Shown here: in pieces, positions 5,221 to 11,853 of the stretch
Layout of the letters: each line of letters opens with the position of its first letter
Position numbering within the stretch: the first letter of the stretch is position 1
Assembly (NCBI RefSeq): GCF_027270735.1
Contig: NZ_JAPWIJ010000002.1
Location: forward strand, 372,001 to 436,000
Length of the DNA: 64,000 nt
Direction: 5' to 3'
Source of the DNA: Rhodococcus ruber
GTDB lineage: Bacteria; Actinomycetota; Actinomycetes; Mycobacteriales; Mycobacteriaceae
Notes under the pieces: model-generated
Database searches by the model: none
What the model was told of the DNA's origin: nothing
The model's input: the letters and a program-made list of their open reading frames with translations, nothing else
Translations under genes and position numbers: made by a program

Positions 5221-6021
5221 TCAGCGAGCCGACTTCTTCTCGTAGATCGCCATCGACCAGATGTAACCGGCCACAGTGATCACTGCGCACCAGGCAAGTG
5301 CAAGTGGCAGATTCGTACCCAGCGGCTCCCCCGCCAACAGTCCTCGCAGGGTTTCGACGAACGGCGTGAACGGTTGGTAGTCAGCGAACCATCGCAGTCC
5401 CGACGGCATCGTGTCGGTCGGGACGAACCCGCTGCCCAGGAACGGCAGCAGCAGCAACAGCATCGGCAGGTTGCTCGCTGTCTCGACCGATTTCGACGCC
5501 ATCCCCATCGCCACCGCGAGCCAGCTGATCGCGAAGGCGATGAGCAGCACCATTCCCAGAATCGAGAACCATTGCAGAGTATTGGCATTCGGTCGAAAGC
5601 CGATAGCAATTCCCACTGCCAGCACAACCACCACTCCGAGAACGGCTTGCACCGTATTGCCGAGAACGTGGCCTGCCAGAACCGCTGCTCGCGAAATAGC
5701 CATCGTCCGGAATCGCGCGGTGATTCCTTCGGTCATGTCCATCGCCACGGTGGTCGCAGTCCCACCGGCAGTCCCTGCGATGGTCATCGCAAGGATGCCA
5801 GGCATCACGTACGGCAGGTATGCAGAACGTCCGGCGGCTGGGTCCACACCGGGCAAACCTGCGCCGAGTGTTCCTCCGAATACGAAGACGAACAACATCA
5901 GGAACACCACCGGCGCGCCTATGACGAACATCGTCAAGCCCGGATACCGGCGGATGTGCAGAAGACTGCGGCGGAGCATGGTGATCGAGTCACTCATCGC
6001 GTATGTCGTTGCGTTCGTCAT
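5221..6021 (-). CDS. ABC-2 type exporter permease, DrrB-like
   Basis: 266 residues with six hydrophobic segments, beginning with a cytosolic stretch ITMLRRSLLHIRRYPGLTMF and the ABC2 signature region in the middle (GITARFRTMAISRAAVLAGHVLGN). This is the membrane half of daunorubicin-resistance-type exporters that pump lipophilic molecules or lipids outward. Its ATG overlaps the stop of the ATPase gene by 4 bases, so the two form one transporter. Last gene of the four-gene unit starting at 8385. The substrate is unknown. Confidence 0.88.
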   Translation of the reverse strand: MTNATTYAMSDSITMLRRSLLHIRRYPGLTMFVIGAPVVFLMLFVFVFGGTLGAGLPGVDPAAGRSAYLPYVMPGILAMTIAGTAGGTATTVAMDMTEGITARFRTMAISRAAVLAGHVLGNTVQAVLGVVVVLAVGIAIGFRPNANTLQWFSILGMVLLIAFAISWLAVAMGMASKSVETASNLPMLLLLLPFLGSGFVPTDTMPSGLRWFADYQPFTPFVETLRGLLAGEPLGTNLPLALAWCAVITVAGYIWSMAIYEKKSAR

Positions 6022-6959
6022 GATTCCACCTTGCTGTCGGTCCGCCCCGTCAAAGCCATGAACACGTCATCGAGGTCCGGGGTGTGGATGCTCACATCGT
6101 CGGCTGTCACGCCGGCTGCGCTCAGTCGATCCAGTACGCCCTGCAGGGTGCGGACGCTGCCGTCGGTCGGTACCGACAGCACAAGACTGTCGACGTCGAC
6201 AGGCGCATTGCCGAATGCACGGCGAGCATCGTCCAGCGTTCCGATATCGGCGAAGCGCAGTCGAATGTGGCCGCCGGGCATGCGGCGCTTCAGCTCGTCC
6301 GGGGTACCGTCGGCGACGATCCGGCCGCCGTCGAGTACTGCGACACGATCTGCGAGTTCGTCTGCCTCGTCGAGATATTGGGTGGTGAGCAGCACTGTGG
6401 TGCCGTCCGACACGAGGGATCGCACGATGTCCCACATGGTGCGTCGGCTGCGTGGGTCGAGGCCGGTGGTCGGCTCGTCGAGAAAGATCACGCGTGGTGG
6501 GGCGACGAGGGTCATGGCGAGATCGAGACGTCGCCTCATGCCACCCGAGTACGTGGACAGTGGTTTTCGACCCGCCTCGACGAGGTCGAACTGTTCGAGC
6601 AAGTCGGCGACGCGCGGCTTGGATCGCTTCGGTCCCAGATGCCGGAGTCTCGCCATCAGCATCAGATTTTCCTCTCCGGTCAAGAGGTTGTCGACCGCCG
6701 AGAACTGACCGGTGAGACCGATCGCAGCGCGGACGCCACCGGGGTCGGTGACGACGTCACAACCTGCGACGGTGGCCGAACCGCTCTCCGGCCGAACGAG
6801 AGTCGACAGGACGTGAACGGTGGTCGTCTTGCCTGCCCCGTTCGAGCCGAGGAGCGCGGTGACGGTACCGGTGCCGACAGAGAGGTCGACGCCATCGAGT
6901 ACACGTTTGTCGCCGTACGACTTTCGCAGTCCGCGGACGTGAATGGCAGATGTAGTCAT
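6018..6959 (-). CDS. ABC exporter ATPase, DrrA-like
   Basis: 313 residues. Walker A is LLGSNGAGKTT, the signature is YSGGMRRRLDLAM, Walker B is VIFLDEPTTGLD, followed by the switch-histidine position replaced by glutamine in LLTTQYLDEADELAD, normal for DrrA proteins. The C-terminal 80 residues form the DrrA-specific domain. Start MTTSAIHVRGLRKSYG is chosen because it begins directly at the nucleotide-binding domain, 16 bp after the DUF4097 gene. Together with the next gene it makes a drug or lipid exporter at the membrane. Confidence 0.9.
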   Translation of the reverse strand: MTTSAIHVRGLRKSYGDKRVLDGVDLSVGTGTVTALLGSNGAGKTTTVHVLSTLVRPESGSATVAGCDVVTDPGGVRAAIGLTGQFSAVDNLLTGEENLMLMARLRHLGPKRSKPRVADLLEQFDLVEAGRKPLSTYSGGMRRRLDLAMTLVAPPRVIFLDEPTTGLDPRSRRTMWDIVRSLVSDGTTVLLTTQYLDEADELADRVAVLDGGRIVADGTPDELKRRMPGGHIRLRFADIGTLDDARRAFGNAPVDVDSLVLSVPTDGSVRTLQGVLDRLSAAGVTADDVSIHTPDLDDVFMALTGRTDSKVES

Positions 6960-6975
6960 GGGATGCCTGTTCTTC

Positions 6976-7818
6976 TCAGCTGTGCCGGATAGCAATGTCG
7001 CCGTATCGTGTTCGAGCGCGGATCGTGACACTTTCTTCCGTCTCGTCGGGTGCGCCTTCGGGAGTGAGTTCGTTGCGAACGTGCCCGTCCTTCGATGACA
7101 AGTCGAGCCATGCCGGCACGCCTCGCTGCACACCGACGGCGATCTGGCCGTATCCGCTCTCGACTTGGACTGCACCACTGCATACTTCGTGGAGCGTGAT
7201 GCTGCCGTACGCGGTCTTCGCACTCACTGCGCCGAGTGACTTCTCGATATCGAGATCGCCGTAGGAGAGCTTGGCGTCGAGGTCGGTGCCGGATTCCCGC
7301 ACCATGATCGAGCCGTGCGACGCCTTGAGCGTCGCATCGCCGACGACCGTTCCGACTCGAATCTGTCCATGATCGGCAGTGATGTCGATGTTGCCCAGCG
7401 CCGTAGTGACTGTCGCGTTACCGTGCCCGGCACGCACCCACAGATCCTCTGCCGAATCCAATTCGACCGGGCCCATCGAACTCTTGATGCGCACGGCACC
7501 GAGATCGCCCAGGGTCCGCAGACTTCCGGCCGCGAGTTCCGTGGTGAGTCGAGATCCCTGCGGCAGTTCGACTTTCACCTCTATGGACTCGGTCGGCCCA
7601 AAGAAGCTGATGCGCGCCTTGGGGCCGATCACGGTGAGCCGTTCACCGTCGAACTCGACCTTGGTGTTCTCGGCCCCTCTGCGGTCCACGGCTTTGGACG
7701 GGTTGGTGGGCCGCACGGTGACGATGGTGTCGACACGTTCTGCCGCAACGACTTCGATGCTTCCGACCTGCAGATCGATGGCCAGGTCTATCGGCGTCGG
7801 GGTAGCGAATTCGGGCAT
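6976..7818 (-). CDS. DUF4097-family beta-repeat protein
   Basis: 280 residues built of short repeating beta strands with the pattern G-x-hydrophobic-x-hydrophobic (for example GDLDIEKSLGAVSAKTAYGSITL and GYGQIAVGV), the right-handed adhesin-like fold of DUF4097. No signal peptide or membrane segment is visible, so it is predicted cytosolic here. In actinobacteria such proteins often sit beside DrrAB exporters, as here (16 bp before the ATPase). The molecular role is unknown; scaffolding or regulation of the exporter is a guess. Confidence 0.85.
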   Translation of the reverse strand: MPEFATPTPIDLAIDLQVGSIEVVAAERVDTIVTVRPTNPSKAVDRRGAENTKVEFDGERLTVIGPKARISFFGPTESIEVKVELPQGSRLTTELAAGSLRTLGDLGAVRIKSSMGPVELDSAEDLWVRAGHGNATVTTALGNIDITADHGQIRVGTVVGDATLKASHGSIMVRESGTDLDAKLSYGDLDIEKSLGAVSAKTAYGSITLHEVCSGAVQVESGYGQIAVGVQRGVPAWLDLSSKDGHVRNELTPEGAPDETEESVTIRARTRYGDIAIRHS

Positions 7819-8970: not shown

Positions 8971-9438
8971 TCAGGCCCCGGCTTCGACGATTCGCTTGAT
9001 TGCCGCCAGCGTCCGAGGGATACCGTCGAGTGCCGCCTGGCTACGAGTCTCGATTTCCTGCTGCGCGTCGTCGCCGAACTTGCGGTGGAAGTGGGCAATT
9101 CCGTCGGGTAGAAAGTTCCAGTTCTCGGTCAGGCGGGTGCCACCGTCCACCGGCTCGAGGGTGTAGCCCCAGCGGACGAAATTGTCGCCCACCACCCAGG
9201 CGAACTCACGTCCGGGTTCGGCTGCAGCCACTGTCGACACCGTTTCCCACGTGCGGCCCGGCACCACGTTGCGCCCGGTGAACGTAGATCCGACACCACC
9301 GCCACCGGGCTCGTTCCACCAGCACTTCTGGCAGATCGGGCTCCATTCACCCGTACGGGTGACGTCGGAGACGACGGCGTACACATCGTCGACCGACGCA
9401 GCGACGGCAATGGATTCGGAGAACTCGAGTGCAGTCAT
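8971..9438 (-). CDS. SRPBCC-family (START-like) protein
   Basis: 155 residues with the polyketide-cyclase/dehydrase layout: N-terminal strand FSESIAVAASVDDVYAVVSDVTRTGEWSP, central strands including TWETVSTV and FAWVVGD, and a long C-terminal helix. Such proteins bind a hydrophobic ligand in a deep pocket; the ligand cannot be told. The start MTALEFSES fits the fold exactly; the upstream extension of the frame has no family features. Divergent from the ClpP pair. Confidence 0.8.
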   Translation of the reverse strand: MTALEFSESIAVAASVDDVYAVVSDVTRTGEWSPICQKCWWNEPGGGGVGSTFTGRNVVPGRTWETVSTVAAAEPGREFAWVVGDNFVRWGYTLEPVDGGTRLTENWNFLPDGIAHFHRKFGDDAQQEIETRSQAALDGIPRTLAAIKRIVEAGA

Positions 9439-9504
9439 CTCACCATTGTCCCTCGGCGGCCGACGCAGCTGTGAGCAGAGTCGCTGCCCACAGCAGAACA
9501 ACTG

Positions 9505-9530
9505 GTGTGCAATCGAATTCGGATTCACAC
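9505..9530. promoter_or_regulatory. Imperfect dyad before the accessory clpP pair
   Basis: GTGTG (9505-9509), GAATTC (9515-9520) and CACAC (9526-9530) form a symmetric 26-bp element centred between 9517 and 9518, ending 7 bp before the proposed ATG of the first ClpP gene. It could be the site of the convergent XRE regulator at 10727-11029, which is inferred only from position. Confidence 0.35.
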
Positions 9531-9537
9531 TCGACTC

Positions 9538-10146
9538 ATGAGCGAAGCGCCTCGAATGTTCCCGCCCGAACTCCGCAACCAACTCCTCCGTCATCGAGTT
9601 CTCGTGCTCGACGGCGCACTCGACGACGACAACGGCACCGTCCTCACCACTCACCTGCTGACGTTGGCAGCCGAGAATTCCTCCGCCGACATTGCACTGT
9701 GGATTCACTCTCCGGGAGGTTCGGTTCCCGCAATGCTCGCCATCCGGGACGTGATGCACCTCGTGCCCTGCGACGTCTCGACCCTCGCGCTCGGATTGGC
9801 CTGCAGCGCTGGTCAATTCCTACTGTCGTCAGGAACGCGAGGAAAACGGTACGCCCTGCCTCATTCCCGGATCCTGATGCATCAAGGCTCCGCCGGCATA
9901 GGAGGGTCGGCCGTCGAAGTAGAAGTACAGGCCAACGATCTGAGGCACACCCGCGATACCGTTCTCGGTCTCATCGCCGACGACACGGGGCAAACACGTG
10001 AGCAGATCTTCGACGACTCTCTGCACGATCGCTGGTTCACCGCAGAGGCTGCCCGCGAGTACGGGTTCGTGGACGCGATCGTCGACTCGTTCGATCAGGT
10101 CATGCCTGCTCGACGGGTGTCCTTCGGAATGGAGATGGCCCGATGA
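9538..10146 (+). CDS. Accessory ClpP-family protease subunit (catalytic triad intact)
   Basis: 202 residues from ATG 9538 (an in-frame GTG at 9505 would run through the dyad). ClpP serine peptidases form tetradecameric chambers that degrade proteins fed by Clp ATPases. The triad is visible: Ser90 in LGLACSAGQF, His115 in RILMHQ, Asp164 in LHDRWFTAEAAREYG. It is more divergent than housekeeping ClpP1/P2 (no long conserved SPGG-SIYDTM sequence; instead SPGGSVPAMLAIRDVM). The next clpP-like gene overlaps its stop by 4 bases, so the two are translated together and probably form a mixed ring. Confidence 0.9.
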   Translation: MSEAPRMFPPELRNQLLRHRVLVLDGALDDDNGTVLTTHLLTLAAENSSADIALWIHSPGGSVPAMLAIRDVMHLVPCDVSTLALGLACSAGQFLLSSGTRGKRYALPHSRILMHQGSAGIGGSAVEVEVQANDLRHTRDTVLGLIADDTGQTREQIFDDSLHDRWFTAEAAREYGFVDAIVDSFDQVMPARRVSFGMEMAR

Positions 10147-10769
10147 GCACGTACACGATTCCCAATGTGATCACACGAGATTCCCGTGGAGAACGCGTCG
10201 TCGACGTCTATTCGCACCTGCTCAGTGAGCGCATCGTCTACCTCGGCACCGGGATCGATGCAGGTGTTGCGAACGCGATGATCGCGCAACTTCTGCACTT
10301 GGAGGCCGATTCCCCCGATCAGGAGATTTCGATGTACATCAACTGCGAGGGCGGTGACACGGCCGCCATGCTGGCCGTCTACGACACCATGCAGTTCATC
10401 GGATCACCGGTTGCCACAACATGTGTGGGCCAAGCCGTCGCAGCAGGTGCTGTGCTGCTCGCTGCCGGCGCACCAGGGCGACGCTCTGCGCTGACCCACA
10501 GCCGGGTGGTGTTGCATCAACCAGCTGCGCAGGGACGCGGCACCATTCCCGACCTGATTCTGGCTGCAGACGAGGTGGTCCGAGTCCGGGCCGAGATGGA
10601 ATCGATCCTTGCAAGACACACGGGCCGCGACGCGGCGACACTGCGCCACGACACCGACCGGGATCTGGTGTTGACGGCCTACGCTGCCCGTGAATACGGC
10701 GTCGTCGACCAGGTTCTCGAGGGGCGTCAGGCAGCCATCAACGTCGCATCTCCTCGCGACAGGTCATGA
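10143..10769 (+). CDS. Accessory ClpP-like subunit lacking the catalytic serine
   Basis: 208 residues, ClpP fold throughout (INCEGGDTAAMLAVYDTMQF, RVVLHQP, YAAREYGVVD). At the nucleophile position the consensus GQAASMG reads GQAVAAG, so Ser is replaced by Ala100 (codon GCA at 10440-10442). His125 and Asp174 remain. By comparison with cyanobacterial and plastid ClpR, this is predicted to be a structural or regulatory, non-cleaving subunit assembled with the active partner encoded just upstream. Its 3' end overlaps the convergent XRE gene by 43 bp. Confidence 0.88.
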   Translation: MSTYTIPNVITRDSRGERVVDVYSHLLSERIVYLGTGIDAGVANAMIAQLLHLEADSPDQEISMYINCEGGDTAAMLAVYDTMQFIGSPVATTCVGQAVAAGAVLLAAGAPGRRSALTHSRVVLHQPAAQGRGTIPDLILAADEVVRVRAEMESILARHTGRDAATLRHDTDRDLVLTAYAAREYGVVDQVLEGRQAAINVASPRDRS

Positions 10770-11029
10770 TGCGCAAGGCGTGAGATATCTGCCATCGACG
10801 TGCCCAATGCACCGACGACGGCCGCAAGGATCTCACTCGACGGGTCCTTGCGGCCACGCTCGACCTCCGACAAGTACTGCGGCGCAATGCCTGCGCGGGC
10901 AGCGGTCTCGGCCAGAGTGTCACCGCGAGCGTGTCTGCGCTCGCGTAGCCTTCGACCGACCACCTCGCGCCACAACGGTTCCACTACGCGCGCTGCTCGG
11001 CGCTCATCGATTCGTATGACCTCGCCCAT
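10727..11029 (-). CDS. XRE-family regulator, ClgR/PopR-like
   Basis: 100 residues with one helix-turn-helix: VGRRLRERRHARGDTLAETA followed by ARAGIAPQYLSEVERGRKDPSSEILAAVVGAL, the compact single-domain layout of ClgR and PopR, actinobacterial activators of clp genes. ClgR-type proteins are themselves Clp substrates; the C-terminus here ends in ATLMAA, and a terminal Ala-Ala is the kind of tail seen in such substrates. Convergent and overlapping with the clpP-like gene. Regulation of the accessory clpP pair is inferred. Confidence 0.82.
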   Translation of the reverse strand: MGEVIRIDERRAARVVEPLWREVVGRRLRERRHARGDTLAETAARAGIAPQYLSEVERGRKDPSSEILAAVVGALGTSMADISRLAHHDLSRGDATLMAA

Positions 11030-11074
11030 GATCGGAGCCTAGGCCTCGATTCCATGAGGTGTCGGCGATTCTGC

Positions 11075-11530
11075 TCAGAGCAGAGAGTCCGGTTTGACGA
11101 ACGTCTTCGCAAAACGCTTCTGCCAGGGCGTTTCCATGGCCCGTTGCGAGTAGTGTCGCCGGACGTAGTCGATCGCCGCATTGCCGGGCACACCGTCGAG
11201 CGCGACGAGGCACGCCAGTGCTGTGCCAGTTCTCCCCACCCCACCGGTGCACGCAATCTCGACCTTCTCGGTTGTAGAGCGGCGCAATGCTTCTCGTAGT
11301 ACCACCGCGAGCTCCTTCGAGTCGGACGGGAGCCAGAAGTCGGGCCAACGAACCCATCGGCTGTCCCAGTCGAATCCACCAGGATCTCTGCCCTGCAGGT
11401 AGACCCCGAGAGCAGGCCGTGGGCCGCCCGGCATCGGATCGCGCAAGGCGCGGCCACGAACGAGACTGCCCGACGGCAACCGCAGCACGCCCCGGCTGTG
11501 TTGATCCCACATTCGGCGCGTCCTTCCCAT
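11075..11530 (-). CDS. Protein tyrosine phosphatase-family protein
   Basis: About 151 residues from the ATG at 11530 (a second ATG lies at 11512). The CX5R phosphatase loop is CTGGVGRTGTA (Cys94 to Arg100), followed by a helix ACLVALDGVPGNAAIDYVRRHY, the usual layout of dual-specificity phosphatases. A general-acid Asp may lie in the WVRWPDFWLPSD segment about 30 residues before the loop. Small cytosolic phosphatase of unknown substrate; no partner kinase nearby. Confidence 0.78.
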   Translation of the reverse strand: MGRTRRMWDQHSRGVLRLPSGSLVRGRALRDPMPGGPRPALGVYLQGRDPGGFDWDSRWVRWPDFWLPSDSKELAVVLREALRRSTTEKVEIACTGGVGRTGTALACLVALDGVPGNAAIDYVRRHYSQRAMETPWQKRFAKTFVKPDSLL

Positions 11531-11577
11531 GCCGTTCGCGACACCTGTTTCTGCCCAGCACCGATTATTGTGCCCCC

Positions 11578-11853
11578 ATGCGCTCAGTTGTTCTTGCCTT
11601 CGCCGCACTAGGGCTCACGGTGGGTCTGCTTGCGTCCGTGTCCGGATGGGCCGGAACCCTGTACGTGGAACCCGGACAAATGAGCCGGGCCTACGCGACC
11701 ACTGCTGATATCGCCGTGCAGGTTCGAGTCGGCCTGTTCCTCGACTGGTGGACAAAAGCGCAACCCATCGTCGGTGCCGTTGTCGGTGCCGCGTTCGGCT
11801 TCACTCTTTTCCGGTGCGGCTTCCGACTGACACGCGACGGAAGGCCTGGCTGA
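11578..11853 (+). CDS. Small membrane protein, two spans
   Basis: 91 residues beginning MRSVVLAFAALGLTVGLLAS, a hydrophobic first segment, then an extracytoplasmic loop (GTLYVEPGQMSRAYATTAD) and a second span (AQPIVGAVVGAAFGFTLF) with a basic tail. No family recognised. Divergent from the phosphatase gene, 47 bp from its proposed start. Confidence 0.6.
   Translation: MRSVVLAFAALGLTVGLLASVSGWAGTLYVEPGQMSRAYATTADIAVQVRVGLFLDWWTKAQPIVGAVVGAAFGFTLFRCGFRLTRDGRPG

Follow-up and report, generated by a model that had tools for sequence, protein, structure and literature searches.

An accessory pair of genes for ClpP-type peptidase subunits lies in a 64,000-nucleotide stretch of the Rhodococcus ruber genome (NCBI RefSeq assembly GCF_027270735.1, contig NZ_JAPWIJ010000002.1, positions 372,001 to 436,000 of the forward strand). 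This stretch is called the window, and coordinates refer to it. The two genes, named clpP3 and clpP4 here, are followed by a convergent gene for an XRE-family regulator (Table 1). ClpP3 carries the Ser-His-Asp (SHD) triad of catalytic ClpP peptidases (family S14). ClpP4 does not have it: its motif GQAVAAG places an alanine at the nucleophile position, while the His and the Asp are kept. An initial annotation of the DNA had assigned the residues of both subunits in this way, and both assignments were confirmed by position and by a joint alignment, in which the triad positions of the two proteins share the same columns. The 4-bp coupling of the clpP genes and the 43 bp (10727-10769) shared by the open reading frames (ORFs) of the regulator and clpP4 were also found as first described.

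Both proteins match the Pfam family CLP_protease (PF00574; cut-off 20.2 bits) over nearly the whole length of the domain, ClpP3 with 176.5 bits (E 6.3e-52) and ClpP4 with 207.7 bits (E 1.8e-61). Among the matches listed, ClpP4 falls below the NCBIfam cut-off for each of 10 ClpP-type models. The best solved relatives of ClpP3 are ClpP1-like and those of ClpP4 are ClpP2-like, including actinobacterial ClpP2. The four ClpP matches in the genome form two pairs, and the second, on another contig, is an ordinary one with Ser-His-Asp in both subunits. The idea that ClpP3 is missing an N-terminal axial loop was dropped, as the housekeeping P1 of the same genome is similarly short. The nearest named loci to the module come from Rhodococcus sp. 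and Rhodococcoides fascians.

Table 1. Features of the clpP3-clpP4 locus (positions in the window).
Feature	Position	Strand	Remarks
clpP3-like gene	9538..10146	+	202 aa; presumed cutting subunit; Ser90-His115-Asp164 intact; pocket Ala53/Trp55/Leu75
clpP4-like gene	10143..10769	+	208 aa; presumed docking subunit; nucleophile replaced by Ala100, with His125 and Asp174 retained; pocket Ser63/Tyr65/Phe85
clpP4 codon 100 (Ala), motif GQAVAAG	10440..10442	+	nucleophile position
clpP3/clpP4 ATGA overlap, 4 bp	10143..10146	+	spacing common to 147/209 modules
PopR-like XRE regulator gene	10727..11029	-	100 aa; convergent; C-terminus LMAA (Ala-Ala tail)
Putative operator array 5' of clpP3	9465..9497		PopR-box-like sites 9465-9479 and 9483-9497; includes 27-bp dyad 9468-9494
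PopR-box-like candidate operator TCTGCTCAGAGCAGA before the regulator	11070..11084		0 mismatches
26-bp imperfect palindrome	9505..9530		probably the dyad of the initial annotation

Regulator and candidate operators

Judged by its gene order, its operator sequences and the tail of its regulator, the locus is a module of the PopR-clpP3-clpP4 type known from Streptomyces. The regulator is convergent to the clpP pair in all 209 modules of the survey described below, and Ala-Ala forms the C-terminus of 202 of 212 regulators. For the degradation of ClgR and Lon by ClpP1P2 in Streptomyces, the likely signal is a pair of alanines at the C-terminus, and PopR is degraded too (PMC9775585). Against the NCBIfam equivalog model for ClgR (NF041677), the regulator in the window scores 63.9 bits, under the 170-bit cut-off, and is the second of eight matches in the genome. 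The best match is encoded elsewhere and reaches 143.5 bits, also under the cut-off. The possibility that the regulator is ClgR itself was rejected because of this better match. The broader proposal of the initial annotation, an accessory ClpP pair with one subunit lacking its nucleophile and with a ClgR/PopR-like regulator of its own, is supported.

PopR binds TCTGCC-3N-GGCGAATCTGCC-3N-GGCAGA in Streptomyces, and the S. lividans box is TCTGCC-3N-GGCAGA (PMC9775585). A perfect match to TCTGCYNNNRGCAGA stands 40 bp before the start codon of the regulator and is the only perfect one in the 64 kb. The nearer of the two sites before clpP3 also lies 40 bp from its gene and has one mismatch; the farther one has two. 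These two sites are 18 bp apart, and the 15-bp spacing of S. lividans was seen in 9 of 28 orthologues listed. Sites with at most two mismatches precede clpP3 in 166 of 209 orthologues and the regulator in 111, at densities of 4.6/kb and 2.2/kb, respectively, compared to 0.47/kb in the clpP3-clpP4 coding part (69 of 209 with one). Across 19 genus loci (L024 left out), conservation, taken as the mean share of the majority base, is 0.89 for 9465-9497, which is the best conserved stretch before clpP3 in the genus, 0.79 for 9505-9530, 0.77 for 9498-9537 and 0.71 for 9430-9464. The 26-bp imperfect palindrome, probably the dyad that the initial annotation had placed before the pair, was rejected as an operator since it is hardly more conserved than its flanks; the second dyad, of 27 bp, lies within the array. 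A protein-tyrosine-phosphatase-like gene (11075-11608, minus strand; Pfam PF22784, PF00102) precedes the regulator on the same strand, and the last 10 bp of its ORF overlap the regulator's presumed operator.

Triad residues in the genus and across the Actinomycetes

In 37 genomes of the genus, 20 contained the Ala-type pair (ClpP4 identity 90-100%), nine a pair termed type B, two only fragments and six neither. Position 100 is Ala in 20 of 20 genus orthologues, encoded by GCA in 12, GCG in seven and GCT in one. A regulator match (E <= 1e-15) was found in exactly the 20 pair-bearing genomes and the two with fragments. Median dN/dS, the ratio of nonsynonymous to synonymous substitution rates, is 0.029 for clpP4 (105 genus pairs with dS 0.05-1.0; largest value 0.13) and 0.034 for clpP3 (121 pairs in the same dS range; largest 0.09). 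The clpP4 gene with Ala100 is under strong purifying selection, and Ala100 is no accident. Type B ClpP4s (G004, G006, G007, G009, G017, G025, G031, G034 and G036) are 56-58% identical to ClpP4 of the window, both subunits of all nine type B pairs have the full triad and the adjoining XRE gene is more distant. The two types occur together in none of the 37 genomes. In G028 (C1:1222186-1222693) and G029 (C31:294992-295440), clpP4 fragments lie beside a shortened regulator match, and the whole module seems to be decaying there. In L024/L052 (Rhodococcus sp. H36-A4), residues 5-36 and 32-198 of ClpP3 are in different frames, due to a frameshift or an assembly error.

Orthologues were then gathered within the family, across the class, and from plasmids and named genomes, always with the Ala-type ClpP4 as the query. 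One locus (L034) was excluded as a housekeeping locus returned as a match. From 282 loci, 265 were left after dropping 17 with proteins identical to those of another locus. Thirty of the 265 are housekeeping loci and 235 are non-redundant accessory loci, of which 212 have a regulator on the fetched stretch. The other 23 were left out of the counts; in these ClpP3 is SHD in 23 of 23 and ClpP4 is SHD in 11, AHD in 11 and SDD in one. Part of this set may represent second pairs of the housekeeping type, such as L217, which also matched in the housekeeping search. Counts of 209 modules exclude L076, L223 and L246.

The triad of ClpP4 is broken in 165 of the 212 regulator-linked modules and intact in 47. 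The initial annotation had called for a survey of the alanine in orthologues: the residue is constant in the genus, and Ser is found in other lineages. The finding that it had named as a refutation, Ser in orthologues, was thus obtained only in part. The triads are AHD (107), SHD (47), SGD (15), GHD (13), SHT (5), GHE (4), SHN (4), WHT (3), EHH (3) and, once each, ADD, GND, GHQ, AQD, WHD, SHS, EHN, SGE, FHN, SHH and GHA. ClpP4 is thus broken by several routes: Ser is replaced by Ala, Gly, Trp, Glu or Phe, His by Gly, and Asp by Thr, Asn or His. Where the Ser is gone (138 regulator-linked ClpP4s), His is kept in 135 and Asp in 124. The ClpP3 triad is SHD in 209 of 211 modules; the exceptions, L223 and L246, have clpP3 in two frames, and L076 has no clpP3 on its fetched stretch. 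A class-wide sample (394 genomes searched, 123 matching, 89 loci fetched and 71 regulator-linked after removal of duplicates) gave, taken alone, 50 broken and 21 intact ClpP4s. As a control, 30 loci were chosen class-wide from the listed housekeeping matches. There, all 30 P2s and 28 of 29 P1s are SHD; the sole exception is L286 (SHE, Glu for the catalytic Asp).

The module was also found on records filed as plasmids in Embleya sp. NBC_00888 (L125), Tsukamurella tyrosinosolvens (L126), Streptomyces fungicidicus (L127) and Prescottella equi (L128). The neighbours of L126, obgE and proB, look chromosomal. The P. equi ClpP4 has lost two triad residues (Gly, His, Gln).

A ClpP4 tree was built from 101 of the 209 modules, one for each cluster by 88% identity and triad, with five housekeeping rows as the outgroup and with the triad columns omitted. 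Triad combinations change at least 27 times on this tree and the intact or broken state at least 6 times, counts which cannot separate loss from regain. The ClpP3 triad of the same representatives does not vary. Groups with high support in the Shimodaira-Hasegawa-like approximate likelihood ratio test (SH-aLRT) are those with His to Gly (99), with Asp to Asn, His or Ser, some also with Ser to Glu (98), with Ser to Gly (98), the large Ala group (98) and a group with Ser to Trp, Phe, Ala or Gly together with Asp or His changes (97). Intact lineages branch among the broken groups, except between the last of these and the Ser to Gly group, where there are none. Several chemistries of triad loss occur in ClpP4, and the number of losses is uncertain because this is a quick tree in which 45 of 103 inner branches have poor support. 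In the raw tables, the HQG motif and pocket loss in ClpP3 both tend to go with a broken ClpP4, HQG being present with 66 of 71 broken ClpP4s and 13 of 30 intact ones; with correction for the tree, for which only four pairs were usable, no link of this motif or of ClpP3 pocket loss with a broken ClpP4 was shown.

Docking pockets and a proposed division of labour

In S. hawaiiensis, the pocket for ATPase loops and acyldepsipeptides (ADEP) is formed by Y76/Y78/Y98 in ClpP1 and S94/Y96/Y116 in ClpP2 (PMC9765437), and these positions were transferred to our proteins by their distance to the catalytic Ser. The ClpP4 in the window carries ClpP2-type docking residues. Across the modules, the ClpP4 tyrosine (Tyr65 in the window) is present in 209 of 209, and position 85 is Phe, Tyr or His in all 209, being Phe or Tyr in 179. 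ClpP3 has the Tyr in 52 of 208 modules, and its third residue is aromatic in 8 of 209. Both features are present in 30 of 30 housekeeping P2s and in 28 and 25 of 29 P1s. By these counts the two losses are opposite: ClpP4 gave up catalysis and retained the dock, and ClpP3 retained catalysis and gave up the dock at least in part. The ClpP3 change is also present beside intact ClpP4s.

These residues, and the analogy with characterized cores, suggest that the locus probably encodes a PopR-type accessory Clp core with divided labour, in which ClpP3 forms a cutting ring and ClpP4 a dead ring for docking, the two making up a heterotetradecamer under a PopR-like switch. ClpP3 and ClpP4 would be co-produced, and one ClpP3 heptamer would stack on one ClpP4 heptamer, as in bacterial ClpP1P2. 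Peptide cleavage would be confined to the ClpP3 ring, as the ClpP4 ring is without a nucleophile. The ClpP4 ring would serve as the platform for the Clp ATPases of the cell and as a structural partner that activates ClpP3. The PopR-like XRE activator would bind the boxes before clpP3 and before its own gene, and the housekeeping ClpP1P2 would degrade it by way of its Ala-Ala tail. We therefore propose that failure or blockage of ClpP1P2 turns on production of the spare core. Streptomyces provides a precedent, since ClpP3P4 is a backup made once ClpP1P2 stops degrading PopR and is insensitive to ADEP (PMC12607617). One-sided docking has precedents as well. S. hawaiiensis ClpP1 with ClpP2-S131A has full activity, and its ATPases dock via the ClpP2 pocket only (PMC9765437). 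In M. tuberculosis, chaperones bind only the ClpP2 side, and active ClpP1 with inactive ClpP2 processes fully (PMC4416901). The pair in the window looks like the division of labour of ClpP1P2 made permanent.

Several points weigh against this proposal. Inactivating either subunit of M. tuberculosis ClpP1P2 hardly slows protein degradation (PMC4416901) and, thus, catalysis there is not one-sided. The 47 intact ClpP4s show that not every module requires a dead subunit, and the fraction of broken triads carries a bias, all accessory loci having been found by similarity to an Ala-type ClpP4. Ser occupies the nucleophile position in or beside the Ala group in L069, L112 and the Kribbella loci L060, L080, L081 and L090; the organisms are Actinomadura hibisca, Nocardia jejuensis and Kribbella species. 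These copies are possibly regains, and L069 and L112, which fall within the group, look like it; the four Kribbella loci have no regulator on the fetched stretch. The four SHN variants may be active in the complex, by analogy with Listeria ClpP1 and its Asn172 (PMC9765437). In the 16 modules with His to Gly, of the Streptomyces type, ClpP3 has the pocket Tyr in 15 and the third aromatic in none. Why His and Asp are so often retained in Ser-less ClpP4s is not accounted for by simple decay of the active site, and a structural or allosteric role of the His is possible. Box matches with up to two mismatches are no commoner in the whole window than in shuffled sequence, with 12 found, 7.7 expected and as many in 6 of 100 shuffles. 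The AlphaFold models (20 and 18 rows) were too poor to be used, with a mean predicted local distance difference test score (pLDDT) of 54.8 and 52.9.

The main question is whether the inactivity of ClpP4 is selected or merely tolerated. Under relaxed selection, the active sites of a docking ring are never needed and drift away, so that inactivity itself has no function. We take this to be a serious possibility, although we lean against it: the Ser131Ala change costs S. hawaiiensis ClpP2 nothing (PMC9765437), and the many different substitutions and the few Ser copies inside the Ala group resemble drift, but housekeeping ClpP2, with the same docking role, kept SHD in 30 of 30 loci. Drift also fits poorly with the His retained in 135 of 138 Ser-less ClpP4s and the Ala in every genus locus, and drift in one ring leaves the pocket loss of the other ring unexplained. 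Decay of clpP4 or a sequencing error at Ala100 is refuted. Fragments are all that two genus members retain, yet Ala recurs in 20 genomes with three codons at a dN/dS of 0.029, and the pocket is there in 209 of 209. It is extremely improbable that ClpP4 remains active through a substitute nucleophile or a composite site, as the kept His125 and Asp174 might suggest, given that the replacements include Gly, Trp, Phe and Ala, that the Streptomyces-type group has Gly for the His, and that the listed Ala-type motifs share no stand-in Ser, Thr or Cys around position 100.

Other arrangements of the subunits were also weighed. ClpP4 (or ClpP3) might mainly join housekeeping rings as a poison or modifier, like ClpP-ADEP of S. 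hawaiiensis, which disrupts ClpP1 and pairs with ClpP2 (PMC12607617). Hybrid cores are conceivable because the best solved relatives of ClpP4 and ClpP3 are ClpP2-like and ClpP1-like, respectively. We consider this unlikely, since clpP3 and clpP4 stay together, mostly with the 4-bp overlap, and since their opposite defects complement each other. Their identity matrices also correlate with r 0.77 (best of 500 permutations, 0.09), a value to which shared ancestry contributes. The initial annotation had pictured a single ring mixing active subunits with inactive, ClpR-like ones. Such mixed heptamers are compatible with the sequence and known from Synechococcus ClpP3/R, with a 3:4 ratio (PMC4673316). 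They are very unlikely here: bacterial ClpP1P2 pairs, including that of Listeria, stack separate homoheptamers (PMC8182300, PMC4673316), ClpR is without a triad while ClpP4 keeps His and Asp, and a split of pocket and catalysis makes sense for separate rings. Neither the mixed ring nor the ClpR-like label was borne out, and a cutting ClpP3 ring stacked on a docking ClpP4 ring is the arrangement that we favor.

Elsewhere in the window, genes for an ABC-2 transporter membrane protein and an ATPase adjoin one for a DUF4097 'toastrack' protein (5221-7818, minus strand). No tRNA was found in the 64 kb, and a promoter and terminator scan of 9400-11150 found none.

Significance and comparison with known systems

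The module, dead ClpP subunits and the dispensability of ClpP2 catalysis were already known. In our searches of the open literature, we found no report of repeated triad loss in ClpP4, of the Streptomyces-type Gly for His or of partial dock loss in ClpP3. Nor did we find there a statement on triad loss in ClpP4 of PopR modules, which the S. lividans papers (2000, 2004) may hold. A 2008 survey of serine proteases counted 21 of 121 Clp-like proteins as inactive (PMC2605481), and these may include some ClpP4s of PopR modules. Most of what is known of catalytically dead ClpP subunits comes from cyanobacteria and plastids. In the modules described here, such subunits occur with several substitutions in a large non-photosynthetic group, together with a regulator of a known type and with opposite losses in the two subunits.

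A wider reading is that the PopR-controlled spare core of the Actinomycetes became one-sided several times, through different chemistry, with ClpP4 selected to be dead while retaining its dock and ClpP3 selected to stay catalytic while losing its own. We regard this as close to an even call, just on the doubtful side. If it is true, inactivity of the docking ring is adaptive, for example through a changed product size, the absence of self-processing before assembly, or a backup core that ADEP-like and Ser-targeting inhibitors no longer affect. Streptomyces ClpP3P4, so far treated as an ordinary backup protease, would then belong here through its loss of the catalytic His. Its insensitivity to ADEP may be partly explained by the altered ADEP pocket of ClpP3, which is missing the third aromatic residue. 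The natural series of intact, Ser-less, His-less and Asp-less ClpP4s beside a near-invariably intact ClpP3 makes the question of the dead ring testable and, with it, the wider one of what leads a heteromeric Clp core to retain or abandon the active sites of one ring.

The closest known system is the PopR-clpP3-clpP4 module of Streptomyces (S. lividans), an accessory pair beside clpP1P2 with a ClgR-type activator and palindromic boxes of the TCTGC type (PMC9775585, PMC9765437). In the plasmid copy of S. fungicidicus (L127), the genes are ordered and oriented as in the window, and the regulator ends in LAA. The ClpP4 in the window has lost the Ser, whereas in L127 and in all 15 genomes fetched of the 16 that matched in group g52, Gly replaces the catalytic His of ClpP4; this group is taken as Streptomyces because L127 falls among its members. 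Housekeeping ClpP1P2 of mycobacteria and Streptomyces is likewise a ClpP1-like and ClpP2-like pair. Its ATPases dock on the ClpP2 side, and in Streptomyces the catalysis of ClpP2 is dispensable (PMC9765437, PMC4416901). Both of its subunits are SHD in nearly all loci of the class sample, in contrast to the window, where ClpP3 has the full triad and ClpP4 the docking residues. Cyanobacteria and plastids likewise pair an active ClpP with a non-catalytic paralogue, ClpR. ClpR differs in having no triad and in sharing its rings with active subunits (PMC4673316), while ClpP4 has lost the Ser alone and is ClpP2-like. Finally, the two-ring core of Listeria ClpP1 (Asn172) and ClpP2 includes one subunit whose triad is weakened. 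There, Asn stands for Asp and ClpP1 is activated in the complex (PMC9765437), whereas in the ClpP4 of the window the nucleophile itself is gone.

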